A stretch of 64,000 bases of DNA. It comes from Mytilus galloprovincialis. Lineage: Eukaryota > Mollusca > Bivalvia > Mytilida > Mytilidae. Where the stretch lies: positions 37,427,958 to 37,491,957 of the forward strand of contig NC_134842.1 of the NCBI RefSeq assembly GCF_965363235.1, given 5' to 3'. Numbering within the stretch: the stretch's first letter is position 1; every line of letters begins with the position of its first letter. Positions 1 to 58,022 of this stretch are shown here, in pieces. The position numbers were made by a program, and so were the translations under genes. The notes under the pieces were generated by a model. The model made no database searches and had not been told where the DNA came from. It saw only the letters and a program-made list of their open reading frames with translations.

Positions 1-1262
1 GTTGAAGAATCATCGTTGTTGTCATCTAAGTTGTTAATGTTTGTTCGGATTTCGAGCGGGTACAGTTTTACTATAGGACGCGAAGTACGTCCTGCACTAG
101 TTCGTATTATAGCTGCTCGTGTAAAACCATCGTTTCCGGTGATCAATTCATCAACAACGGCAATGTTCCATCGGTTTTTCGGTAATTTATCATCTTGGAC
201 TTGCACTACATCTCCAACTTGTATAGTTTGTAAGTTGTTTCCTGTTTGGCGATGAAACTCTCTAAGAGTCGTTATGTACTCGGATTTCCACCGGTTCCAA
301 AAATGCTCCATTAAACTTGACTGTTTATTCAAATGTTTATGCAGTTCTTGTTTTCCACTATTCACGGCAATGTATTCAATATTCGGTTGTGGATACGGCG
401 TTAAAGTTATTCTTCTTCCGTACAGCAAGTGTGACGGAGTTAACGGCTCCTCGTCCTCAATATCCGGTGATACGTAGGTCAATGGTCTATCATTAATGAT
501 CGCTTCTATTTCTGTCAGAATTGTTTGAAGTGTATCCATGGTAACGTAAGATCTGCCTAATGTTTTCTTCAAACAAGTTTTTGTAATTCCTATAAAGCGT
601 TCCCACCATCCACCATACCAGGGCGCTCCTTTTGGTATGAATCTCCAAGTTGTTCCATATGTTGACAACGTATCATTTAGCGATGGTGATTGGGTTAATT
701 TCTTTAATGTTTCCGAGGCGGCTAAATATGTCGAGGCGTTATCCGATATCATGGTGTGTGGTCTAGATTTACGACTAGCGAATCTTCTAAAGGCTTGTAA
801 AAATGATTTTTCTGATAAGTCCGGTACAACTTCCAGGTGTACGGCTCTCGTTGAAGCACAAGTAAATAGGCATATAAAAACCTTGTGTTCAGTATCATGT
901 GTATCTCTAATGTACAGCGCTCCGGTAAAGTCTACGCCGGTAATTGTAAAAGGCGGTGCTTCAAGTAATCGAACTTTTGGCAGTGGCGGAGGATCGGGTG
1001 CTGTATATGGTTTACTGTTGATTTTTCGACAAATTACGCAATTTCGCAAAATTCCTCTTACGTATTGGCGAATTCGGGGTATCCAGTAAGTTTGTCGTAT
1101 CTGAGTCACTGTTGATAAAACTCCTGAGTGTTTCATGTACTTGTGTATATCAAGAACAACTAATTTCGTAAAATGATGACTTCTAGGTAATAAATAAGGA
1201 AATTTCGTATTTTCACAAACAGGTGCGTTATGAATTCTCCCTCCACAGCAAATTGCGTGTAA
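1..1262 (-). CDS. BEL/Pao integrase, C-terminal part outside window
   Basis: Read on the minus strand in the +1 frame relative to gag-protease. It begins near CCGGRIHNAPVCENTKFPYL, the standard opening of the BEL integrase zinc domain. The HHCC finger follows: His residues in the KLVVLDIHKYMKHSGV stretch and the NCVICRK cysteines. The DDE core comes next (GVDFTGAL first Asp; TMISDNAST second Asp; the WWERFIG segment holds the Glu). A DUF5641-like C-terminal region (VGDVVQVQDD, then NRWNIAVVDELI) runs to the window edge with no stop. It has no start codon of its own. Whether the original element expressed it by frameshift or fusion cannot be told, because the deletion junction changed the frame. 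Confidence 0.88.
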
Positions 1263-3036
1263 AGTATTTCGTCTGGTTTTGAAGTGGAACTGCAATATCT
1301 GGAACAATCAATGCATTAATGTTTACAATCTCACCTTTGTCAGTTTGTAGTTGAACGGTTGCTGTATCCAAATGGCGTATATTCTTCTCCTTGTCTCCAA
1401 AGGCTGACAGTTCAATTGTGTCCCTTCCGCTTGGTCTTATCTGTAATTTGTCTGCTATGCTCTGAGTGATGAATGAACGTTGGGCACCTTCGTCAAATAA
1501 AATACTAGCTTCTGTGATCTGTTTCCCGTATGATATTGGTGCGATAGCGGTTTTCAATAAAACGCTTGTGTGTTGTGAGGTATACATTACTGCAGTTTCT
1601 GGTTCTTCTGTTTTTACCAAGCTTACAACGGTTGATTTTTCCTTGCTGTCCTGTCCTTTTCCATCTGTAGCTTGTTCCCCGCAAATACTGGTGTGATGTT
1701 TCTTGTTACATTTCTTACATCGGTTACGCGATTTACACTCGGCAACACCGTGGTTTCCTAGACAGTTGAAACATTTTTTCTTTTGCTTTACGATGTTCAG
1801 TCTTTCATTCACGTCAGAAATTATCGTGCAATCTCCCGGAAAATGTATACCAGTGCAGTAGATGCATGGACGTTTTTTGTCATTGAAACGTGGATTGTTT
1901 GTATTGAAATTTCGCTGAGTTTTATTGCGAGCTTCGGTCAGAAATGTAGCGGTAGTATGTAAACCTTCGCGGTCGGTAAATTGTCCCGCTTCAAGAATTC
2001 TCGCTTCTTTTGTGATGGCTTTTCTGAGGTTGTTTAGAGTTATATGATCGCTATCATATTCACGGGCAATACTTTTTCTCGTTTCTACTGGTAGTTTACT
2101 AATAATTATAGGTACTAATAGCGCGCCATACATTTCTTGTGTTTGACCCAAACATTCAAGACCTCTTACGTACGTTTCTAGGTGGTCTCCGTACCTCCTT
2201 AGGCTGTTTAAATCATTTGACGGTGAAGGAAGATCCATTAAAGCTTTCATGTAGGCATGAATAATCTTTTGAGGCGATCCAAAACGCTCTTTGAGCAAAT
2301 TAACGGCAGTGGTGTAATTGGCATTTGTCAGTGCGAAACCTTCAATAGTTTGGGCGGCATGGCCATTGAGTTGGGCCTTCAAGTAACTAAATTTCTGTAT
2401 CTCGGTCAAAGTACTGTTGAAATGAATAGTTGATTCATAGGAATCCCAAAATGTTTGCCATTGTAAAATTTCCCCATCAAAGTGTGGTAAATCAAGTTTA
2501 GGTAATCTGTGATTTTGACTGCTGTTTGATACTGAAGAAAAGCCTTGGTTGTACAAGTTATTTGTAGACTGCAAGTCACGATGGGTATTTTGCATGGAGC
2601 GAAAGTTATCAAAATTGGTTGGCTGTACATTAATTTCAGTTTCATTGCTGCGTATAACATTGGCATTTGTAAGCGATGAATTTGTGGGGTAAGATGGCAT
2701 AAAACTATTTGCATTTGGATCTAGAGACGTTGATGCGACATTTTGAGAAACAGAATCAGAATATATTTTTCTAATTTTCCGAAGTTTGGACTCTAAATTA
2801 AACATATACTCATCAGACTCTTGAATTTCCTCTTCTACATCCTCCTCCGACGTTAAATCCAGTATCTTTTCATTCAAATCCACGATAGTCTTCTGTTTCT
2901 GTTCAACTGCATCCGAAATTAGTTTCACATCGTCTTTGTCTAAGTCCGAATTCTTTTCAATCTCATCGAATTTCTTGAATAACTTTGTAACTTGCCCTCT
3001 GTGTCCTCTACGTACTGCTTTTAACTTCGATTCCAT
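1228..3036 (-). CDS. BEL/Pao Gag-protease polyprotein, 602 aa, truncated in protease
   Basis: Residues 1-100 are charged and coiled-coil-like, and the start reads MESKLKAVRRGHRGQVTKL, a usual BEL gag opening. The DUF1759-like gag core lies at about 180-330 (KLDLPHFDGEILQWQTFWDS; later LKERFGSPQKI). Three CCHC-type knuckles of form C-x2-C-x3-H-x4-C follow at about 390-455, beginning CIYC, CFNC and CKKC. A DUF1758-type aspartic protease follows (ILFDEGAQRSFITQ), with DEG in the place of the commoner DSG/DTG. The protease is cut short: after IVPDIAVPLQNQ the conserved C-terminal half is absent and the frame ends at 1228. The ATG lies just inside the primer-binding site, as expected. The frame is intact for 602 codons, so the copy is fairly young. 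Confidence 0.9.
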   Translation of the reverse strand: MESKLKAVRRGHRGQVTKLFKKFDEIEKNSDLDKDDVKLISDAVEQKQKTIVDLNEKILDLTSEEDVEEEIQESDEYMFNLESKLRKIRKIYSDSVSQNVASTSLDPNANSFMPSYPTNSSLTNANVIRSNETEINVQPTNFDNFRSMQNTHRDLQSTNNLYNQGFSSVSNSSQNHRLPKLDLPHFDGEILQWQTFWDSYESTIHFNSTLTEIQKFSYLKAQLNGHAAQTIEGFALTNANYTTAVNLLKERFGSPQKIIHAYMKALMDLPSPSNDLNSLRRYGDHLETYVRGLECLGQTQEMYGALLVPIIISKLPVETRKSIAREYDSDHITLNNLRKAITKEARILEAGQFTDREGLHTTATFLTEARNKTQRNFNTNNPRFNDKKRPCIYCTGIHFPGDCTIISDVNERLNIVKQKKKCFNCLGNHGVAECKSRNRCKKCNKKHHTSICGEQATDGKGQDSKEKSTVVSLVKTEEPETAVMYTSQHTSVLLKTAIAPISYGKQITEASILFDEGAQRSFITQSIADKLQIRPSGRDTIELSAFGDKEKNIRHLDTATVQLQTDKGEIVNINALIVPDIAVPLQNQTKYFTRNLLWRENS

Positions 3037-4325: not shown

Positions 4326-7300
4326 ATGTCTGTGGATCTGGAAGAATATTTCAAGACGACCTTCGAGGATACCCTCGTGGTGTACGTTTTCCTACAGTAG
4401 TCTAGAATATGAAAAATAATGCATATTAATTCCACACTGGTTCAATGTAAAAAATGGAAGTAGTTTAAGAAAACACATAGACCTAGATATGTAGAATGTG
4501 GTTTTCTTCTGTCATGATTCCCTATTGGCATTATAGCAATTACCTCTATGCAGTTACATGTACACTCGGGCATGTATGACTATGTACATGGCTGCATGCA
4601 GTTCCAAAAGAATACACCTTATCGCTATTTGTCTGCCATTACTGTACATCACGGTATCGGGACCGTTTGCCCTAATAACATGTTCACCCTGGGAAGGTTC
4701 GCCCTAAACATTCGTCCATAGAGTCTGTTTGCCTTACTGAAGTATTGAAGTTGAATAAACTTATTCAGATATTTCTATGGTATATATTCTTGAAATTTGT
4801 TGAAACAGGGAAATATTTAAAAGTTTATGGCTTGTTTAGGATCATTATAATTGTTCAATGACAAAATAGTTCAGATCACTGATTATTTGTGATACTTGTC
4901 TTTTGATGGATTATAAATAAAAATCAAACCGGTTTTGTTTTGATAAAATATTCAGCTTGAAATTAATAAAAACAATGATGTATGAACTGTAAATCATGAA
5001 ACATATAAAAAAAGAAGATGTGGTATGATTGCCAATGAGACAACTGTCCACAAGAGACCAAAATGACACAGAAATATGTTTGTTTACAAGTTCACTTAGT
5101 GTAGTCATCAATAAAGAGAAATACATTGTATTTCAGTATCCTACTCTGTAAATCAAAGGGAAAATGATAAATTGATGTTTATTTCACATGTGAATTTATC
5201 GGTTATTATTTAACTGGGAAATCAACATAATTCATTGCAACCAATGTAATAATGATGCTTATCCACCAGTTTCGAAGAATCAGACACCTTTTAAATTCTA
5301 ATTATGATTTTTAAACATTTACTGACTAGTTAGAACAGTCATGACAGTTAAGTTTCATTTTTTTATTCTGTTTTTAGATCACACCTGAACTGTTGAACTT
5401 GACGTCATACAACATTCGCTTTTCCTTCATGGCAACAGAAATTTTCTATTATATATAATTAGGATGTCAAAATTTTATGAATTCCTTTTGTTATTGCATA
5501 TGAGAAAGGTCATCTTATCATGATCCCCTTTTATCTAATGTTTAATATATGTGGAAGAGAAAATCTTTATTTCCTGTTTTTCTTTAATTAGCAAAATGCC
5601 TGAGCGGGAAGATGATCACTTGACACCTGCAACAAGACTTTTGGAGAAGAGAAGAGAAATGGCAGAAGTTGATCAGGCACTCCTAGCCCAGAAAGAGGTA
5701 TTGTAGATTGGTATATTTTCTAATTAAAATTCAGCTCATGAAGAATTTATGACTAAACTATTTACTGGAATAATTCAGTTGTTATAATCCACTGATCTAT
5801 TATGGCTACATTAACACCTGAATGTCTAGACAATGTAAAGTAGTCCATTAATCATTTGAAATTAGCTCTGGATTTACCTACCTTGAAAACTTTAAGCTTT
5901 CAGCTCATCCAGAGAGTTTCAATCAAAATCCTTGATTTGTGAAGCCTTTTAATCTTATAAAGATTTCAGGCCCTCAACATTCAGAGAAATAAACACTTCA
6001 ACTGGGACTGAATTATTTATTTTCCAAAATAAATGCACATTAGCATAATTAGGGTATTAGATTAAAAAGTATGGTACATTTTACATTGTTTTATGACTAT
6101 ATGATCAATTATTGTCTTCCTTTGAATTTGTAAATGTTGAACACTGCAAGTCTGGAACTTGTAGTTCTTCAAATGCTTTCATGAAATAAGTTAATTAACT
6201 AAAAATGAAAGACAAGTCATTTTTAGATATTTTTTATATACCTTTTCCCTGAACCAGCTACATAGTATGATGCGCAGGGTTTCCCCTGGGTCAATTATTT
6301 TTTTCGCCACCTCTTTCGCCAAAACAATATATTTTTCGCCACTGTATTATTTTTTCGCCAAGTAACATATCGTTTCAAATTTAACTTTTTTCTGCCCCCC
6401 TCTTTTCTTAAATAAGATGACTTTGCCCCATTGTGTCTATGATAATTCTCTCAAACTTATGTTAGAGTCTACATTTTAATGAATAAACACTCAACATTTA
6501 CTTTACAAGAACAGATTTTTTTTTAACTTAAAAGGGAAAAATATTCATTGTATTTTAAACAACTTTTCTAAATGAGGAGGCCACTATACTTTTAATAATA
6601 CAGAAGATATAAGTCCTGGAATATAACAAAATTCATGGATATGTTTTGATCTTATAATACCAGTATAGTTGGTAGGGAAAGTTTCTTAAAAAGAAATATA
6701 CTGATGTGCCCTTTTGTACTAAGAAGCGGTTTTTACTACAAAACAAAAGCTTTTATCACATTAAATTGATCCCTCATTTCATGTGTAGTCATTACTTTGA
6801 AGGGTTAATCTCATTCTAGGGGTTGTTCCCGACCTTTTGGATAGATTTTTTTCATAACGACAGTTTTCTGTTCTTGACCATCGTAAATAAAAAAGTTGAA
6901 ACGTAAAACTATGCTTGAAACACGTGTGTCACTCAAACAACTTTAAAGTAGTCTCCCTATACTAATCAATTACCTATATTAAAGTCAAAGGATAATTAAA
7001 GTTTTAAATCGGAGATTTTTCTTCCTTTTGAACATTTTTCGTCACAACAGCATTCTTTTCTAAACTATCTTTAAAAAGAAAAGGAGACGTCAAAAGTTTG
7101 CTTCAATCACGTGCGTCGCAAAGTGGTAAATAAATTTTGTAATATGACATTTTCCGGAAGCCATTTAACCATATCGTTTTGTCAAACAATTCAATCAACA
7201 CCTTTATTAATTAGTCCTTTGTTGTCGATAGCCATAAAATGCAATCGGCTGATTATTGATTTTCTGTCCAAATCTTAATGAGGTCAAGGTGAATTCCGAG

Positions 7301-10300
7301 TATTGTCTGATCGGGTAAAGTCCGAGAAACTCGAAAAAAGTAAATAAACAAGATGGAGGAAAATAATTCGTTATATATTTTTCTTTCGCCAAATTCTTTC
7401 GCAAATGACGAATTTTTATCGCCACAATTATTAATTTTTCGCAAATTGCGAAAATGGCGACCGCCAGCGGAAACCCTGATGATGCGATATATTTCATATT
7501 TTTAAAAACAATTATATGATATTCTACTTCAAGGAATTCCAAATGAAAATGGAAAGTTTACAGCAAAGAAGAGAGGAACTAGAAAGAAAAGAGTGTGATT
7601 TAAAGGAGCAATTACTGAAGTTTGATCATTTTCTCAAGGTAAGTATCAGAGGTTTATAGATAAATCATCTTTTGTAAGGGTTGTTCTTGTAAATGCAGCT
7701 AATGATATATAGATGTAAATTATTCCTATTTAAAAGTGTCTCACTTATCTTGAAAAAAACAAATTTTAATGAAAAATAAACATCCTGCTGTCAAAACTGA
7801 GTAATGACACTTATTATGATTGAATATATATTGCAAAATATGCAGAAACATTATATATTTTGGCTAAAGATGTTTTTTTACATTTGTGATGACATTGACA
7901 TCTTATAGAATGATTCAAAAATTGTGGTTGAAAATGGAAGTATTTGCACTATCAGCGGTTAGAAAAATATGTAAGAATTGATTGAAATTAAAGTTAATTA
8001 CTAATGTTGAGCTCCTTAAAAGATCTGTTTGTATATAGAATTTAATATTTCTAAAGGATATTACATTAAGTTAACTGGAACTTTTATTTTAAAAAGTTTT
8101 ATAATATAAGGTAGTGAATTTATGAAAAAAAAATATTACTATATCATAAAATATCATTTGTTTACAGGAAAATGATTCTAAGAAAGCAAGAGCTTTGAAA
8201 AAGGCTGACGAGGAAAGAGATTCAAAGAAACATAAAGATAAAGAAATTGAGAAGTAATTACAACAACATTATTACCTCCCTTGTCACAATATCTATGTAT
8301 TTGACAAAATTACCTCCCTTGGCACAATACATAATTTATATTTGACAAAATTACCCTTTGGCACAATACATAATTTATATTTGACAAAATTACCTCCCTT
8401 GGCACAATACATAATTTATTTTTGACTAAATTACCTCCCTTGGCACAATACATAATTAATATTTGACAAAATTACCTCCCTTGGCACAATACATAATTTA
8501 TATTTGACTAAATTACCTCCCTTGGCACAATACATAATTAATATTTGACAAAATTTCCATCCTTGGCACAATACATAATTTATATTTGTCAAAATTACCT
8601 CCCTTGGCACAATAGTATTATATTGTCAAAATTACCTCCCATGCCATGGTACAATAATGGCATATTACTCTTGGTTTGTTATTATGGTGTATTGGGTTAG
8701 CCAAAAGATATAGATATGTTCAAAATTTAAGGTTTATATTTATTCATTCGTGTAAACTTCTTATCTTTAGATATAAACTTCTATTTCGAAGAATTCAAAA
8801 ATATTCAACTCATGACCGAACAACACTGATAATTAACTCCTAGTCATAGCTACGCGCATTTGTGAATTAATGTGTTGTTTGGTCACTCGTTGAATATTTT
8901 CTCTATTTGAATTCTTCGATTAGTTATTCTATAATTTTAAAACAACTATGTACACTTTATGTAACAACTTGTCTTTTTGAGATCTGTTCAGTATGTTGGT
9001 CTGATTGACTTGTGGATTGAAAATTTAAACATAGACTTAAAATTTGATTTAATGTTAAAAAATCCAGTTATCTGTATAGCCTTTTGGTTAATTGCATAGC
9101 AAATAATCACCAGCTAGATATGCTTAATTAAACTGGTCTCTATATTTCACCTGAAACATCAAGTATGTAAGTAAAATTATTTAATACAATGTTATTTTCA
9201 TTATTTTTTGTCTCACCTGTGACAAAAGTTGCAGAAGACAAGACATAGGTCAAGGACATCAACAATTGTTAAGTCTTCTGCTTAAGGTGGCTCGGGCCTA
9301 TTCGAAGTTTCTATCAGAATTGCCATATTTTTAAAAATTTTATTCTTTACAGAATGTGAATCAAATGGTCGAAAAAAAAATAGGGGGTCACTGACCATTT
9401 AGGCTCAAAATTTTACTTTTAAATAGGTATGTAAAAGGGACCATTTTTCAATGAAATGATAGGAAAAATAGAGGTGTTGACATATTTTTATCAGAATATA
9501 AAAAAAAGTTCTCTGACAATTCGTCCAAAACTGTAATATAAACAGCTGAAATATAGCTTCAAACAATGAGCAAATAAAAAACATAGGTCACTGATAATGG
9601 AAAAAAAATATTTTGCCTTAAAACCCAAATAGTGGTGGGAAAATGGTGAAATTGGGTGATATGGCATTTTGAGCCTTTCACAGATAAACATAATAACAAT
9701 AATATTTTTATATTGACATAACTACAATGACTTAACATTTTTAATTAATCAAAATATTTTAAAAAAATAATATCGAATTTATGACACATACTTTTTGTGT
9801 GTGTTGTAATTCATGCGTGAAATTATGCACAGTCGAATAGTCCCGATCCACCCTAAGTCAGTTTCATAGAAACTTAACTTGTGATTGATCAATGCTTTTT
9901 TCTATAACGTTGCATTACTATCAGTACATCACAGTTGAAGATCATTTTGACGTGCTGCCCTAAATGTCATGGGTCCAGCAAACTTTGAATTAATTAGCAT
10001 TGTTGCTGTTTATCCATTTGTCTGCATTTTCTGTCGACAGGCAAGACATGTCTCAGTGTCAACAGTTTAATTTTTATTTACTTTTGAGTTGTTTCAATAT
10101 ATAGTTAAAATAGTTTCTTTCTTGATTATACTATGTGATATTCATTTAAGAGGGGCAAAAGATACTAGAGGGACAGCCAAACTCATAGATCTTAAAATAA
10201 ACTGAAATCACCATGGCTAGAAAATGAAAAGACAAGCAGACAAATAATAGTACAAAAGTTTAATTTCTCTCAAGTTGTACAGGTAAAATTGATTCCCTTG

Positions 10301-13300
10301 TTCTATTTAAAGCCTTGGGTCATGAAAATGTCGACCAGGAGTAAATTTTAAAAAATATTGCCTCCTTTTAATTAATTTCAATGACTATCTATGTATAATG
10401 CGTTTAATTCAGGCTTGGCAAATGGGTTATTTCTTTTCATGTAATACATTAAAAGACATTTATTTATTGCTGAAGATTTTTATGTATCAAACATTTATTG
10501 TTTGTTATTGTTGAAAAGTGTATGTATTTAATATATACTTCTAATTATTATGTTTCATTGTACACATATTTGTCACTAAAAAAAATCTATTTGTTGAACA
10601 TTTGGTTCTATATTTATATTACAGATAAAGGTAATATTGGTACACAAAAAACAAACAAACAAATCTTTTTATAAACTTTATTAAAAGAATTAACAGACAT
10701 TAACATTGATGACATCAGAAATTTCACTTTTATTAGAATTCAAAACTCTAAACTGTATTGATGGATCACAGCTCTTCATCTTTCTTTTGAGATTTCCTTC
10801 CCATCAATCTTTTTTTACTCTGTAATTTTTGCATTTTGGATATGAGGATATTTCACATAATCACATAATTTTGTCTGACAAATAGGCTATGCAAATAGTC
10901 AGAATCGTCTGTATATACTTCAGTGTTTCTTATTACTTTTTTAGATTGAAAGTAGAAAAATCAAAACTAGAAAAAGACAAATCCAAGTTACAAGAAAAAT
11001 TAGATAGATTTAAAATTTATCACACTTACATGGAAAAGGTGTTAGAAGCAGGAGAGGAATTTGGTGAAATGAGAGATATTATAGCTAGATATGACACATT
11101 GACAGCAACACATGAGGTAAGAAACTATCATGATGAATCAGCGGGAAAATAGGATGAAAAAAAGACCACAACACATAAATCGTGTGCTGCAACAAATGAC
11201 AATTGATTGTTTTAAACCTTGACTTTGTTATAGCACTTTCCTTGAACATTTTTATGGTGAAAATTATTCTCACCAACCCACTTCGGCATACCTACTTATG
11301 AATTATTGTTTTAATATCTTGCCCAGGCCCCCATTACAAAAAGTTCTGGATCTGCCACCGTCTTGCAAGATTATTGTCCATCATTTGCACTGAACATTTT
11401 TCAAAGACCAATTTTAATTGAATCTTTTTAGTATTCATATTTTTTTATTCATTACTTGTGAGATATATATATATACATATACTTGAAATATTAAGATATT
11501 TTACTAAGACAATCCTACAATACATTGTTCTATACAAGACATAGAAACATTAAAAAAAAATGAAAAATGATTTAGCAGTACATGTATAATACTTTACAGG
11601 TGAATAATATTCGAATATTCATTTATAAAATTGTAATTTTTTCCAGGATTTATTAGAACAGGACCAAAGAAATCAGGAAGTCATAGAAAAAGAACGACAA
11701 AATTTGATGAAATACAGCGAGGTATGTTGGATCAAGGCCTTGCTGTGATAATTAAAAGAACCATGAATTATCATTAAAGAATTGAAAAAATATTTGATTG
11801 TAGTATAAAAATGTTCACCATTTTTTGAAATTTAGACACTACATTCATTTTGTCAACAAATCTGGCCTTTGTTAGTCTTGTGTTATTTTAATTTTAGTTT
11901 CTTGTGTACAATTTGGAAATTAGTATGGCGTTCATTATCACTGGACTAGTATATATTTGTTTAGGGGCCAGCTGAAGGACGCCTCCGGGTGCGGGAATTT
12001 CTCGCTACATTGAAGACCTGTTGGTGACCCTCTGCTGTTGTTTTTTATTTGGGCGGGTTGTTGTCTCTTTGACACATTCCCCATTTCCATTTTCAATTTT
12101 AAAGAATAGTACAACCTTTATAACTAGGTAGAAAAAATGTGTGCTGTGTTGAGATTTTCTTGACTGTTTTAGAAAGTAAAGTAATTATTTATTTGCAGAA
12201 ATAGATTTTCTACTCAGGTGTCTTCATCTCTTTGAACACAAGCATATTCAATTAAGAATAAAGTAGTTTTAATTAAGGTGTATATTATTTTTTTTAAATA
12301 TATTAAGTAATACGAACTGAAAGGTAATGCACTATACACATCATATGCCGCCATGACGTACGTTGTCTGCCACTGCTATTCGCGGCATATTCTGCGATGA
12401 CCATGGATATTTCATCAGGACTCTTAAACCATTCGGTTTTCATTTTGGGTCCTCTCATTTTTCCTCATATGAATTGAGGATATACAAGGTCTCATTTGCG
12501 CTTGAAATCCCATCAATTTTTATAGTAAAATCATGCAGTAGAAGGAAAATAGAAGGAAAATAAAAACAAATATTTTGACAAATGCAAATGGCGGAAATCG
12601 GAAACGAAGCTGTAAATATGGAAATATTTCAGCATTCTATGGCAAAACTGAAAACGAGGATTAGTTAAAAGGTTTCTTGTTATCTCAATGTGTTTATTAC
12701 ATTTAATTCGTGTGGGAAATATGATTTGATAGATCATTACGAGACGTAGAAATAGGGGGGAACCGGAGGTTGACTGAAAATTTTCAGGACGGAGCCTATT
12801 ATTTGTACCATGATTATATAATACGTTGTGTATAGTGCAATAGGCTATGGAATTGAGCAACTGGTGTCTTTTATATTATATGGCAGATAAGACAAGAAGA
12901 TAAATGAAGACTAAAAGTAGTTTTTATTCAAAATTCATTACAAATGTAATATATTACACCTTTTACCTGTTAATTACCTGAAAATGCAGCTAACCTGATA
13001 AAAATTTATTGAAATAATTGCCTAACATTACAGGTTATGCTCTCCTGATTATTTTTCATGCAATAACTGTTTCTGTATCTCTTATAATAAAAAAAAATAC
13101 AGCAGTCTGAAAAGGGATATACTGTTTTATTGAATGAACACCAAAAAAATGCAGCAGGAGCAGCAGCCATTTTTCTATGTTTTTTGTAGCGTTGAAACTT
13201 GAAAGGGTTAACAGTATAAATTATAATTGTTTATATTATTTTCATAGGAAAAAGACAATGAGATTTTATCCTGTAATAACCAATTATCAGGATTACAGAC

Positions 13301-16300
13301 TCAACTTGACACAGCTCAGAGTGAGGCTGTAAAATGGGAGTCAGCATGGACACATATTAAAAATACTGCTGCTACAAAAACACTTACACTTGGTAGAATT
13401 AAAATGTAAGTTCACACAAAACTGTGGGTGTTAGTAAGACTTGAATACTTTAGTTATAGTAATTGATGTTCATTGTATATTTCTGATATTTTATAAGATA
13501 AGCACCATCCATTTTTGTTGCTGAAAAAAAACATGTGCACAAATTTGAAAGCATCTATATATAGAATACCAGTGTAGTATATAAAAAATATTTTTTACAT
13601 AAAAATTCCCTCTCATCATCCCATTTCTCACACCCCACCCCATACTTTCCCACATAAACAAAAAATTGATCAAGCTGGCAAGAATTGTTATAGATAAACT
13701 AAATGAAACATCTTTCATTGCACAATTTTAAATAAATTTATTTTTGTTTTGATAGGGCTGCCAGAAATTTGTATCAGTTAGTCAAACGACACCAAAGACA
13801 GTCAGCGGAAGAAGAAGAAACACATGAACAATTAGCACAGGTAAAATTGTACCTCAAATTACATATATATATATCTGGTGTTAAATGTCACATATGTATG
13901 TATTTTGGTAAAGGTTTGGTTTATAAAATATGGACAAGCAAAGTGGAAATCTGTTGTTGAAGTACTCTCTTACTTCCTTGCAGAATATACAAATACCCAA
14001 AGACAAACATACATATTTATTTTGTACACAGATGTTTTGATTTAAACAAAGTTACCTTCAGCATTTGGGTTTAAGTTCAGTTCTCATGCAACATGACCTA
14101 CGATCATAAAACTTTTTAGGAAGATATCTATGTTTTTGCAAATAAAGTTCAAACGTTATAAAAAGTTAAGGGATTGAATTTTCAAAACTAGAAAAACAGA
14201 AATCAGAGAGGAAAATCTAACAGATTTCTCACCTTGTGAAAAGAAATATATATGTATATATGCGTGTTTGTCATGCCAGTGAAAACTGTACTCATAGATG
14301 ATTTGTTTGTTTGAAGGATATATATATATTAAGTTTTCAAAAGCACTATAAAGATTAAGATTTTTTTTTGTCTTCCTTTGAAGTACATTTGTAAAAGCAT
14401 AAAATCTAATAATGTTTATTTTGCTATCATATGTTGAGGAAATCGAAACATTTGATTTGATATATGTAATACAGCTATGAGCTAGCTTTAAATATGGTTA
14501 TGGATCATTAATTTGAAGAATAAGTGATCTTCTCACCAAGGAAAAATAAGAACATTGGTTACAGTAGACTGATGTGATATATCTTTTGTTAACAAGGTAA
14601 AGTGTAACACTACAATCAACTTTCTATCCTACATGTAGAACAGAAAAATATCAATTTGAATAATAAAGTTATGAATAGTTTATTCTAAAAAAGAAAGATA
14701 ATATTAGGTACTCATATACAACTCCTAACCAACCTAAAGAATAAGTACAAGGAAGAAAAAACACGGGCAAAGTGAAAAATAAAAAAAATTCAAATGGACA
14801 AAAATATTCTGATTTATAGGAAAAAAATGGTGCAGTAACTTGTCAAAGTTAAAACTGAAAAATAACTAACAGACAAAATAGTTAAACTTCCTACAGGGAA
14901 AAAAATGGTGTTGTTAAACTAGTTATCTTTGTGTTTAAAATGTCATTGACCAAAAGTTTTCAGCATAAAATTATTGACAAATGAGCAATCACAATGAAAG
15001 ACTAAATCTTTTCATGATGGCACTAAAAAACAAAGCAAGTGGCAGTGACGGGTACCAGCCATAAAAAAAAAAATGATTTCTTATAGTAGTTTTTCATTAT
15101 TACATTTTTTTTACAATAGAAATTATTGATTGACTATGTTTCTTTATAATTTTTGTATTCTTCATTTTTACAGTTAATTGAGTTCCAGTCAAAATTCCTT
15201 TTTATTGCCTGTTTATTTTGCATTAAGATAACAAAATGCTCTGAACATTGGATGCTATTTTTCATAATTTGTTGAAATAAAGATTACTTATATTTTATAG
15301 AAAAACAAATATAACTTAGGAGTACAATTATTTTTCTTTATAAGAACCTTGTAATATTTTTGGAAAGTTTTGATTATAAATGATAAAAAAAAATAAAACT
15401 GGTCTGTGCAAAACCAATTTGAAGATCTTCAGGATTTGAGACTTTTTTGATTAGAAAAGCATTTGATTTAAAAAGATTGAAAATATTTATTGTATTTTTT
15501 TTTGGTTTTAAGTACTTGTAATCAAATTAATTAGCTTATCTCCCTTGTTGAGAGCATTTTTCCCTTACTTTAGAAACACCTGCATGTTGTATACCCTAAC
15601 TGCATGAATAAATCACATGTATGACCTTTACTAACTGTTTAACTTAAATAAGATTTGAGTTCAAAACATATATTAAATATAAGGTAGTGCACATATTTGT
15701 TTTGAGTAGATATCATATATATATAGTACTTTAGTATAGAAGTATAAAATAGTAATATACAAGAGTACATGACTTAGGAATATTTCATACACATCAATAT
15801 ACATGTATAAATAAAATAGACAGTGTAGCACTCTTCTCCATGTGACGATTACTTTTTAGTAGCCTTTTAGGTGGAGCAAAAAAGTATTTTTATATTACTC
15901 TAGTGTAAGTTGTATTTACAAAGGAGTCAGCATAATGGGTCAAGCAGAAAAAATCACCCAAAATAAAAAAAAAGGCTGAATAACAAAGATTTGAAACTAA
16001 AAGGGGGATAAAGTATAAAGAACAATGGAAAATATGCCATAAAAATACTTTTCTTGCTACATATAAACATACGATGAAACTTCCTTGGAAAATTATTTGC
16101 TTAAGTTATCTCCCCTTATGTTAAGCTATTTTTTAAAATTTACTGAAACAATCAGAAGAATTTCTGTTAAGTAAAATCTTAAAATACTAAATTATACATG
16201 GTTTCGATAATGCCACTTCCTGTTTTCACCAGTGAATGTGAGTGGACACACTTGCTAATTTGACCTTTTGAACTATGTGTTGTATGTACTAGTGTCACTT

Positions 16301-17564
16301 GTGCATGTGTGACACACTTAGCTTGCACATTAGCTTGTGTAATAGCCTAGCTTCTAATGTATAACAATCTCCCAAAATGTACCAAGCTGGGGCAGCACAA
16401 GTTCAAGGCCAACAATGAAAAAAGGTGAGAAATTTTTTTTGAAAAAAATTAGCATGCTTAGATATTTATAGCAAACTTGATGTTAATGCATTATATATTT
16501 TTGATGCTTTTTTGGTGTATATTCTATAAAATTTTGAATATAAATAGGTGTATCATTGGTTCATATTATCATTATTCATGCAGAGTTGTTTTATGATCTG
16601 AGAATTATATAAACTTGAGTGGTAAAATTTCAGTTCTTCATTATGTAAATTTTGTGTGTTTTTTATAGTTGACTATTCTAGTCAGGAAGTTATCCATTTT
16701 TCTTCATTCCTTCACACCATTTTTCAAATCAACATTCCCTATAATTCTTAATATCTATGTGTTTTAACATACACTCCAAAACAATCAATACAAAGTCTGA
16801 TGTGTGATTTCCAGTACCTACCAGTTACCATAACCAAATATGATCAAAAGAGTTGCTTCCCTTTATAAGTCTGACTTTTAAAGATATATTTTACCTGTTT
16901 TATAGACATGTAGAAATGTGGTTGTATATAGAATCCAATATTATATATCAATTGTCTCTTTGAAATTGGTATAATATTTAACTGGGCTATATTTGAAACT
17001 TGCAATTAGTGTTTTTAAATAGATAACAAAATATCACTGTAATTTAACAAAAAATCACAATAAAAAAATCACAAATTTATAAATAAAACATAAAGGTTAG
17101 CAACAAGTGTTTGCATTTATTCCATCTCCTTCATTCTTTTTTATTTTCATCAAATATGTTTTGTATAACTATTGATGTTTTTCTTTTGATGTCATTTACT
17201 TTGACTGCATAATTATTGACCAATTTTCTTTTGCTTTCATTTCAGATTCAGATGTTTTTGTTTGATCTAAAGGACATTGTACAGGAACTGAAAAGATCTG
17301 ATACTTTTGTGTCTTCTGCCTATGTACCATCATCATCATAGACTTATCTCCCCTGCTGCTGCCAGTACTTACCTCCCTTTCCTCAACATCTTGTGTGGCT
17401 CATTACTATACTTCTGCACACTTGGAATGATTCATTTTAGAATATAATATGTAAAATTACGATTTCAGATCCGTGTAGTCATTCAGGATTTGCTGTCGAT
17501 AACCGGTGAGATTAGAAGAGCAGAATTGTCTCAGGCATCAATAGTTCCACCATCATCCAGTTAA
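4326..17564 (+). CDS. CFAP73: CFAP73/CCDC42-family axonemal coiled-coil protein (9 exons)
   Basis: Coding exons: 4326-4381, 5592-5697, 7534-7638, 8168-8253, 10945-11116, 11647-11721, 13248-13405, 13756-13840, then 17246-17341 or 17469-17564. All introns are GT-AG and all phases join without a break, giving about 312 aa, close to human CFAP73 (about 308). Recognised stretches are [20 protein letters not shown] (exon 2), [20 protein letters not shown] (exons 3-4), [16 protein letters not shown] (exon 5) and [20 protein letters not shown] (exon 7). The protein is almost wholly coiled coil. The Chlamydomonas relative (FAP73/MIA2) is part of the MIA complex that regulates inner dynein arms; animal CCDC42 acts in sperm flagella. 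A ciliary or flagellar axoneme role is inferred. CFAP73 is favoured over CCDC42 because of exon 2. AATAAA at 18234 is the likely poly(A) signal. Confidence 0.9.
6275..7478. mobile_element. non-autonomous hAT-type DNA transposon
   Basis: The ends are perfect 10-bp inverted repeats (CAGGGTTTCC ... GGAAACCCTG). The flanks are an exact 8-bp duplication ATGATGCG at 6267-6274 and 7479-7486. An 8-bp duplication and a CAGGG end are the hAT signature. The subterminal parts repeat 'tttcgcca' motifs on both sides. I see no transposase. It sits in intron 2 of the CFAP73-like gene, ending 55 bp before exon 3. Confidence 0.85.
8271..8640. repeat. 41-bp tandem repeat, about 9 units
   Basis: Units read 'ttacctcccttggcacaata' plus 'cataatttatatttgacaaa', with small variants such as gaca/gact and tata/taat. 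The array begins 17 bp after the end of exon 4 of the CFAP73-like gene, in intron 4. Confidence 0.85.
8786..8919. mobile_element. hairpin MITE, about 134 bp
   Basis: Ends TCGAAGAATTC and GAATTCTTCGA are inverted. The arms continue as an imperfect palindrome (aatattcaact...gaccgaacaacac against gtgttgtttggtc...gttgaatatt). No clear target duplication. It lies in intron 4 of the CFAP73-like gene. Confidence 0.6.
9286..9852. mobile_element. MITE with TTAA-like target site
   Basis: Terminal inverted repeats are GGTGGCTCGGGCCTATTCGA and its imperfect complement at the right. The flanks are TTAA (9282-9285) on the left and CTAA (9853-9856) on the right. TTAA targets are used by piggyBac and by Kolobok transposons. 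No coding capacity seen. It lies in intron 4 of the CFAP73-like gene. Confidence 0.6.
11828..12110 (+). repeat. dispersed repeat, 3' end 'ccccatttcc...caatttta'
   Basis: One of several copies sharing 'ggggccagctgaagga', 'gacacattccccatttcc' and a fixed end 'tctcaatttta'. Others are at 30566-30640, 39360-39717 and 43005-43262; an inverted copy is at 44287-44370. Copies differ at the left edge but end at the same point, as retroposons with 5' truncation do. Confidence 0.6.
13841..17245. other. large intron 8 of the CFAP73-like gene
   Basis: AT-rich, with short AT microsatellites (for example near 13862 and 15714). I see no exon, RNA gene or well-bounded mobile element. Confidence 0.5.
17246..17341 (+). 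CDS. CFAP73: CFAP73-like terminal exon, version a
   Basis: The acceptor is ttgctttcatttcag; the exon has 31 codons plus TAG. It starts [19 protein letters not shown] and ends VPSSS. It joins in frame to exon 8 (phase 0). This helical end corresponds to the C-terminal segment that follows the conserved family core. It is the first of two alternative last exons of the same length. Confidence 0.75.
   Translation: MQMFLFDLKDIVQELKRSDTFVSSAYVPSSS
17469..17564 (+). CDS. CFAP73: CFAP73-like terminal exon, version b (duplicate)
   Basis: The acceptor is ttacgatttcag; the exon has 31 codons plus TAA, exactly as long as version a. It starts [19 protein letters not shown] and ends PPSSS. It also joins in frame to exon 8 at phase 0. 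Aligned without gaps to version a, it shares the opening Ile, the D-L pair, the later Ile, Glu and Arg, and the P-S-S-S end. The most economical reading is a tandem exon duplication giving two alternative C-termini. Confidence 0.65.
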   Translation: MRVVIQDLLSITGEIRRAELSQASIVPPSSS

Positions 17565-17700
17565 CCTTGTATATAAAATATTGGAAAATATTACAAGGGA
17601 TACTGCCTATGAAAACTATGTGCTGGCTGGTGTGAAACAATCTTCCCATAAAGTGTGACATTTCTAAGTACCCAATTCTTTTCGTACTAGAAAAAATTGT

Positions 17701-17905
17701 AAAAATGCATTTCCAAGAGTATGACAGACCTTAAGAAACCATTCTGATTGATTCAATTTAAAAGGCATTTCTATGAGTAATGCCTAACCTTCAAAAAAAC
17801 ATTCCGATTGATTACATTTTATGCAACAGTATGTTTTCAATTTTAAAGGCATTTCTTTGAGCAATGCCTAACCTGAAAAAAAACCATTCCAACTGATTAC
17901 ATTCT
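17701..17905. repeat. imperfect triple repeat in the 3' UTR region
   Basis: Three copies of a segment of roughly 70-95 bp with 'ggcatttct.tgag.aatgcctaacct' followed by an 'aaacattccgattgattaca' variant. It lies between the CFAP73-like stop codons and the AATAAA at 18234, so it is probably transcribed. Confidence 0.6.
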
Positions 17906-18233: not shown

Positions 18234-18239
18234 AATAAA
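18234..18239 (+). terminator. candidate poly(A) signal of the CFAP73-like gene
   Basis: AATAAA about 670 bp after the version-b stop. It is followed by T- and G-rich sequence (gttttgatgatg-like). It is the first canonical hexamer that also has a suitable downstream context. Confidence 0.4.
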
Positions 18240-18490
18240 AAAGATATAGAATTGTTTGATGATGTATTGTTTCCTAACTCCTAATACATTTTGTTAGTGT
18301 TTTTACCTATGGTTACTTTAGGATAGAAATAATTCCCATCTGGGATATGTCATAAAATTATTCTTGATCTCATTTTATTGCTCAATAATTGCTCAAAATA
18401 TTATGTTTTTGTAAACACAGGATTGTGTTTGGATATTGTTTTTGACCCATACGACAGTCCATACATCCATTACTCTTTCAGTCCTGTTTT

Positions 18491-18865
18491 TGGCATTGCA
18501 AGTCCTCTGAAACCACACAACAGAATTTGATGAAACTTTGTAAATAAGAAGTACATACTAACGTAGATGTTTAAAAATATGTTTTTGGCATTGCAAGTCC
18601 TCTGAAACCACACAACAGAATTTGATGAAACTTTGTAGATAAGAAGTACATACTAACATAGATGTTTAAAAATATGTTTTTGGCATTGCAAGTCCTCTGA
18701 TCCCACACAACAGAATTTGATGAAACTTTGTAGGTAAGAAGTACATACTAACGTAGATGTTTAAAAATATGTTTTTGGCATTGCAAGTCCTCTGAAACCA
18801 CACAACAGAATTTGATGAAACTTTGTAGATAAGAAGTACATACTAACGTAGATGTTTAAAAATAA
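18491..18865. repeat. 95-bp tandem repeat, 4 units
   Basis: Four near-identical units contain 'ttttggcattgcaagtcctc', 'acacaacagaatttgatgaa' and 'catactaacgtagatgttta'. Differences between units are single bases (aaacca/atccca, cgtag/catag), implying recent amplification. The array lies between the convergent CFAP73-like and SANBR-like genes. Confidence 0.9.

Positions 18866-21452: not shown

Positions 21453-58022
<36,570 letters not shown>

Follow-up and report, generated by a model that had tools for sequence, protein, structure and literature searches.

Among human tandem-duplicated-exon events, 77 of 236 swap the C-terminus of the protein, which is above expectation, and tropomyosin genes carry tandem duplicated 3' exons in human, in fly and in worm alike, apparently without a common ancestor (available part of PMC9741552). 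Also, mutually exclusive terminal exons of tandem-duplication origin have been reported from fly (PMC9013439, in the part available). Human capping protein beta has homologous 3'-terminal exons, in a source whose available text treats multiple poly(A) sites as the usual case for homologous terminal exons (PMC3228551). As a general arrangement, homologous alternative last exons are well documented in vertebrates, to judge from the available portions of two of these papers (PMC9741552, PMC3228551).

The gene considered here is CFAP73-like, and CFAP73 (FAP73) is part of a complex that helps to hold a dynein motor in place. According to the available text of PMC10266980, FAP73 and FAP100 of Chlamydomonas form a coiled coil named MIA. 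This coiled coil is among the four anchors that hold inner-arm dynein f, and it contacts the doublet surface through a C-terminal helix of FAP100 and a member of the FAP189 family through its N-terminus. CCDC42 is described as a paralogue of CFAP73 whose loss leaves male mice sterile (PMC6702985, in part), and two FAP73 orthologues are described in Drosophila (PMC6367277, in part). In the accessible portions of the literature on CFAP73/FAP73-FAP100, CCDC42B and Mytilus mutually exclusive exons, no such duplication of the CFAP73 last exon was found. Here, we describe a CFAP73-type gene of the mussel Mytilus galloprovincialis with two tandem versions of its last coding exon, named copies A and B, from which two alternative C-termini are probably produced. 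The gene lies in a stretch of 64,000 nucleotides, positions 37427958-37491957 of contig NC_134842.1, that was analyzed as a whole and is called the window.

Results

A CFAP73-like gene with two possible last exons

The gene is on the forward strand and comprises eight shared exons (4326-13840), followed by two possible last exons (Table 1). In the gene model, every intron is GT-AG whichever ending is taken, and exons 1-8 joined to either A or B encode an in-frame protein of 312 residues, the frame being completed without a gap.

Table 1. Features of the CFAP73-like gene, in window coordinates
Feature	Position	Strand	Remark
Exon 1, ATG start	4326..4381	+	N-terminal alignment with chains 8j07_j3 and 9fqr_Ho
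Exon 2	5592..5697	+	GT-AG boundaries
Exon 3	7534..7638	+	GT-AG boundaries
Exon 4	8168..8253	+	GT-AG boundaries
Exon 5	10945..11116	+	GT-AG boundaries
Exon 6	11647..11721	+	GT-AG boundaries
Exon 7	13248..13405	+	GT-AG boundaries
Exon 8, phase-0 donor common to both ends	13756..13840	+	Donor score 3.09
Terminal exon copy A, 31 codons and stop, strong acceptor	17246..17341	+	
Spacer of 127 nt, putatively 3' UTR in the A form and, in the B form, the terminal part of the last intron	17342..17468	+	
Terminal exon copy B, 31 codons and stop, weak acceptor	17469..17564	+	
AATAAA, probable shared poly(A) signal	18234..18239	+	Sole AATAAA between the stop of A and 18400

The CFAP73-like character of the gene, noted in the preliminary description, is upheld by a DUF4200 domain and by collinear matches to three CFAP73 chains. 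The PF13863 (DUF4200) profile scores 111.3 bits for the A form and 110.7 bits for the B form, the cut-off being 29.7. In the PDB, eight distinct sequences were matched with E values up to 0.001, and the top three are all named CFAP73: 8j07_j3 (192.7 bits with tail A, 193.1 with tail B), 9fqr_Ho (172.1 and 173.3) and 8glv_AV (169.6 and 167.5), where 8j07 is a structure that we take to be human and 8glv one that we take to be from Chlamydomonas. None of the eight is named CCDC42, and two are named only DUF4200 domain-containing protein. The match to 8j07_j3 spans residues 1-297 of 312 in the A form and 1-300 in the B form, and the match to 8glv_AV spans residues 26-300 and 26-307, respectively. 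The chain matches thus stop at residue 297-307, which leaves the PSSS ends of the protein outside the matched stretches.

When isoform A was searched as a protein against its own genome (E up to 1), 11 matches were obtained, nine of them at the CFAP73-like locus; the two elsewhere are weak (E of 0.053 and 0.197) and look DUF4200-like by eye only. The block containing A and B has one match in the 1.38-Gb assembly (331 contigs), its own locus. With isoform A as the query, no relative was confirmed in the viral and prokaryotic collections, either among the 2 pattern matches in viral_contigs or among the 27 in genome_contigs. In the own-genome search, a weak match that is 33% identical over residues 74-127 of the query protein lies at L010:1501-1662 (G000 C3) and is perhaps an exon of another DUF4200 gene.

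Other elements were recorded in and around the gene. Intron 4 holds a tandem array with a 41-bp unit in 9.2 copies (8271-8640), and a second array with a 95-bp unit in 4.0 copies and 96% matches lies shortly past the probable end of the gene (18485-18864). On the reverse strand, an open frame of 602 residues (1228-3036) matches DUF1759 with 144.7 bits and DUF1758 with 21.8 bits, just below the cut-off of 22; both domains are presumably marks of Pao-type retrotransposons. Two adjoining reverse-strand frames (52395-53522 and 54031-55824) match different parts of one reverse transcriptase profile, positions 91-204 and 1-86, and are probably a single broken non-LTR element.

Homology of the two terminal exons

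The preliminary description had proposed a duplicated terminal exon with diverged copies, on the basis of two exons of 96 nt including the stop, 127 nt apart, both in phase 0, beginning with Ile, ending in PSSS tails and aligning without a gap. Each of these features was found as described, at the same coordinates, and duplication and divergence are both borne out. Moreover, both copies keep the signature of the CFAP73 C-terminal helix, with hydrophobic residues at positions 1, 5, 8, 11 and 15 and the pair Asp7-Leu8 being present in A, B and all three CFAP73 chains. In structure prediction, helix 2-25 was obtained for copy A alone (mean pLDDT 69.0) and for copy B alone (mean pLDDT 84.2), which is weak evidence as each was a single peptide predicted without an alignment. 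After the helix, each tail ends in PSSS (VPSSS/PPSSS).

The two exons are identical at 42 of 96 nucleotides and at 11 of 31 amino acids, or 12 of 32 when the stop is counted. The BLOSUM62 score of their alignment is 46, a value reached in none of 200,000 shuffles of A. When only the first 26 residues are considered, the score was equalled in 4 of 200,000 shuffles, and for the first 19 residues in 1 of 200,000.

To place this resemblance among the other reading frames, 6351 AGs on both strands were scanned, the 1818 followed by at least 19 open phase-0 codons were kept, and their frames were scored against segments of 19 residues taken from the C-terminal helix of each of the three CFAP73 chains. 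The two top ranks among the 1818 frames belong to A and B, with a sum score of 75 each, against 42 for the next-best frame, which is at 27153, outside the CFAP73-like gene. Also, the best partner of A among the other frames is B (31, next 17), and the best partner of B is A (31, next 13). Because both copies head the scan with the CFAP73 helix and pair reciprocally, A and B very probably both descend from the CFAP73 terminal exon. The scores against single chains differ, A being closer to the 8glv stretch (29 against 18) and B to those of 8j07 (28 against 24) and 9fqr (29 against 22), over 19 residues that are too short for these differences to be interpreted. A third copy was not found among the 1818 frames (phase 0, at least 19 codons after the AG). 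In the flanks, when 17046-17468 was compared with 17342-17800, all matches were of 12 nt or less, except for the spacer against itself. A and B are adjacent, homologous, in the same phase and of equal length, the properties by which tandem duplicated exons are recognized. Within the spacer, 17366-17440 has a good acceptor-like AG followed by 24 open phase-0 codons and a stop; this frame is absent from the listed best matches to the CFAP73 end.

Age of the duplication and constraint on the copies

Identity between A and B by codon position is 14, 18 and 10 of 32 for the first, second and third positions (P of 0.019, 0.0007 and 0.42 against base composition). With the shared tail left out, the signal is weaker, being 10, 14 and 7 of 26 (P of 0.11, 0.008 and 0.59). 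The Nei-Gojobori method gives a dS of about 2.5 and a dN of about 0.89 over 31 codons, and a dS beyond range with a dN of 0.95 over 26 codons, all of them rough values because of the few codons. Given that third positions are at chance identity and second positions are not, we infer that the duplication is old and that both copies were maintained at the protein level during most of the time since.

The persistence of an open frame was simulated with 1500 runs per point and an assumed indel rate of 0.12 per substitution. An unconstrained copy kept its frame intact in 20-21% of the runs at 0.1 substitutions per site, in 4-6% at 0.2 and in about 1% at 0.3. An unconstrained copy thus rarely stays open, which sets a limit to the time that A or B could have spent free of constraint. 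The first of these values makes the intact frame of B compatible with a recent loss of this copy. Codon usage is weak evidence for coding in either copy: 6.8% (A) and 3.9% (B) of 985 stop-free intron stretches score equal or higher. Of the three forward frames of A, its own has the highest score, and for both A and B there are higher-scoring reverse frames. The frame of B is not singled out, with forward values of -0.003, 0.019 and -0.087 and one reverse frame at 0.327.

Splice sites and 3' end

Splice sites were scored with a generic matrix typed from general knowledge and not trained on molluscs. Both exons had been credited with a good acceptor, and this stands for A, whose acceptor is rank 2 of the 198 AGs in 13841-17700 and is exceeded by 0.65% of all forward-strand AGs. 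However, it does not stand for B, whose acceptor has a poor pyrimidine tract, is rank 86 of the same 198 AGs, is exceeded by 46% and, with -4.45, is the weakest of the nine in the gene, those of exons 2-8 spanning -1.2 to 5.31 in this matrix. With a strong acceptor for A and a weak one for B, A would be the default form, and B would be a minor or regulated form, in need of help, or recently lost. Two AGs close by score above the acceptor of B, one in the spacer (17366, 4.73) and one within B (17487, 3.44), and an additional AG lies 28 nt upstream of it. The first 89 nt of the spacer are 67% pyrimidine.

The preliminary description had the second ending arise by skipping of the first exon, a wording that a choice between 3' splice sites fits better. 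The six GTs inside the coding part of A score -5.49 or lower, and internal use of A through a donor in its coding part was rejected on these scores. Given also that A carries its own stop and that the only AATAAA up to 18400 lies beyond B, two competing 3' splice sites would be the simplest arrangement, and the poly(A) site would be common to the A and B forms. Other motifs in this region call for caution, namely a weak donor-like GT in the spacer (17393), with a score of -0.27 near that of the exon 4 donor (-0.93), a strong donor-like site inside B (17506, CCG|GTGAGA) and an AATATA at 17441. A splice from 17393 to the acceptor of B could make B the UTR of a spliced A message. No excess of RNA structure that would force an exclusive choice was detected around the exons (z of 0.52, with 67 of 100 shuffles folding at least as well).

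Discussion

The features described above suggest the following scheme for this locus. Long ago, a CFAP73-type gene would have acquired a tandem duplicate of its last coding exon. The donor of exon 8 (13841) would be spliced to one of two acceptors, at 17246 or at 17469, with one poly(A) site past 18234 serving both messages. In the first case, the message would carry tail A and copy B would be contained within its 3' UTR, and in the second, A would be removed inside the last intron and the message would carry tail B. The swap would keep the helix signature and replace further residues, including charged ones, at the C-terminus of a MIA coiled-coil protein. We consider it likely, on the genomic sequence, that alternative C-termini are selected through these two 3' splice sites, the poly(A) signal being common to both forms, and plausible that both ends are made.

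The evidence at the acceptor of B also suits another history, in which B worked for a long time as an alternative end, its acceptor then decayed and it now does no more than contribute to the 3' UTR of the A message. The poor pyrimidine tract of the weakest of nine acceptors and the share of simulated copies, about 21%, that keep their frame at 0.1 substitutions per site are in accordance with such a retirement. Nonetheless, B matches the outgroup chains as well as A does (sum score of 75 each) and retains an intact frame, stop codon and PSSS end, and on balance we hold its recent retirement to be unlikely. The AATATA found 100 nt beyond the stop of A and just before the acceptor of B leads to another alternative, in which early 3'-end formation would set the A form and the two copies would be alternative last exons, each with its own poly(A) site. 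In AT-rich DNA, variant poly(A) hexamers will occur by chance, and the sole canonical AATAAA up to 18400, at 18234, is downstream of both A and B. Even with the precedent of human capping protein beta and the view, in the available text of PMC3228551, that homologous terminal exons most probably have multiple poly(A) sites, early 3'-end formation has in our opinion only a slim chance of being correct.

Two further proposals concern the nature of B itself. It could belong to an internal exon, with its end at the donor-like site 17506 and a further exon downstream, considering that this site scores 6.8 and that, of the eight donors of the gene, only that of exon 3 (7.85) exceeds it. However, the frame runs past 17506 through residues aligned with CFAP73 to a PSSS tail like that of A, which makes an internal exon very improbable. 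The similarity of A and B could also be fortuitous between unrelated open stretches, given the low nucleotide identity (42 of 96) and the lack of flanking matches above 12 nt. This explanation is rejected by the shuffles (0 of 200,000 reach the A-B score) and by the ranking of both copies at the top of the 1818 frames compared with the outgroups, and the probability left to it is negligible.

In relation to the MIA complex, tails A and B would correspond to the C-terminal end of the FAP73 partner, and their exchange may alter docking of the dynein. A tuning of docking between gill and sperm, as suggested in the preliminary description, would be a speculative consequence. If both ends are made, the mussel gene would offer a natural swap of the last helix in a dynein-anchoring coiled-coil protein, between copies whose third codon positions are at chance identity, and a direct test of the role of the CFAP73 C-terminus in holding inner-arm dynein f across cilia. 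One could go further and propose that a single CFAP73-type gene with swappable helices covers the roles that vertebrates divide between CFAP73 and CCDC42, general motile cilia versus sperm, with B needing a tissue-specific splicing factor; we regard this extension as decidedly improbable.

The exon duplication in itself would be a further case of a well-described process. The preliminary description knew of no such arrangement in the vertebrate genes; as a general kind, it is documented there. The C-terminal tandem-exon swaps, e.g., those of the tropomyosins, resemble the mussel gene in having adjacent homologous last exons, homologous C-termini and a protein of coiled-coil type, and differ from it in being annotated isoforms according to the available part of PMC9741552, whereas the mussel case is known from genomic sequence alone. 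Human capping protein beta is similar in its homologous alternative last exons and in being a cytoskeletal protein; however, it has multiple poly(A) sites (PMC3228551, in the part available), and for the mussel gene we consider one shared site likelier. Finally, with respect to CFAP73/MIA2/FAP73 of the DUF4200 family, the three solved chains are collinear with the mussel protein and either tail aligns to their C-terminal helix, whereas the mussel gene carries its last exon in duplicate and encodes PSSS ends beyond the matched stretches.
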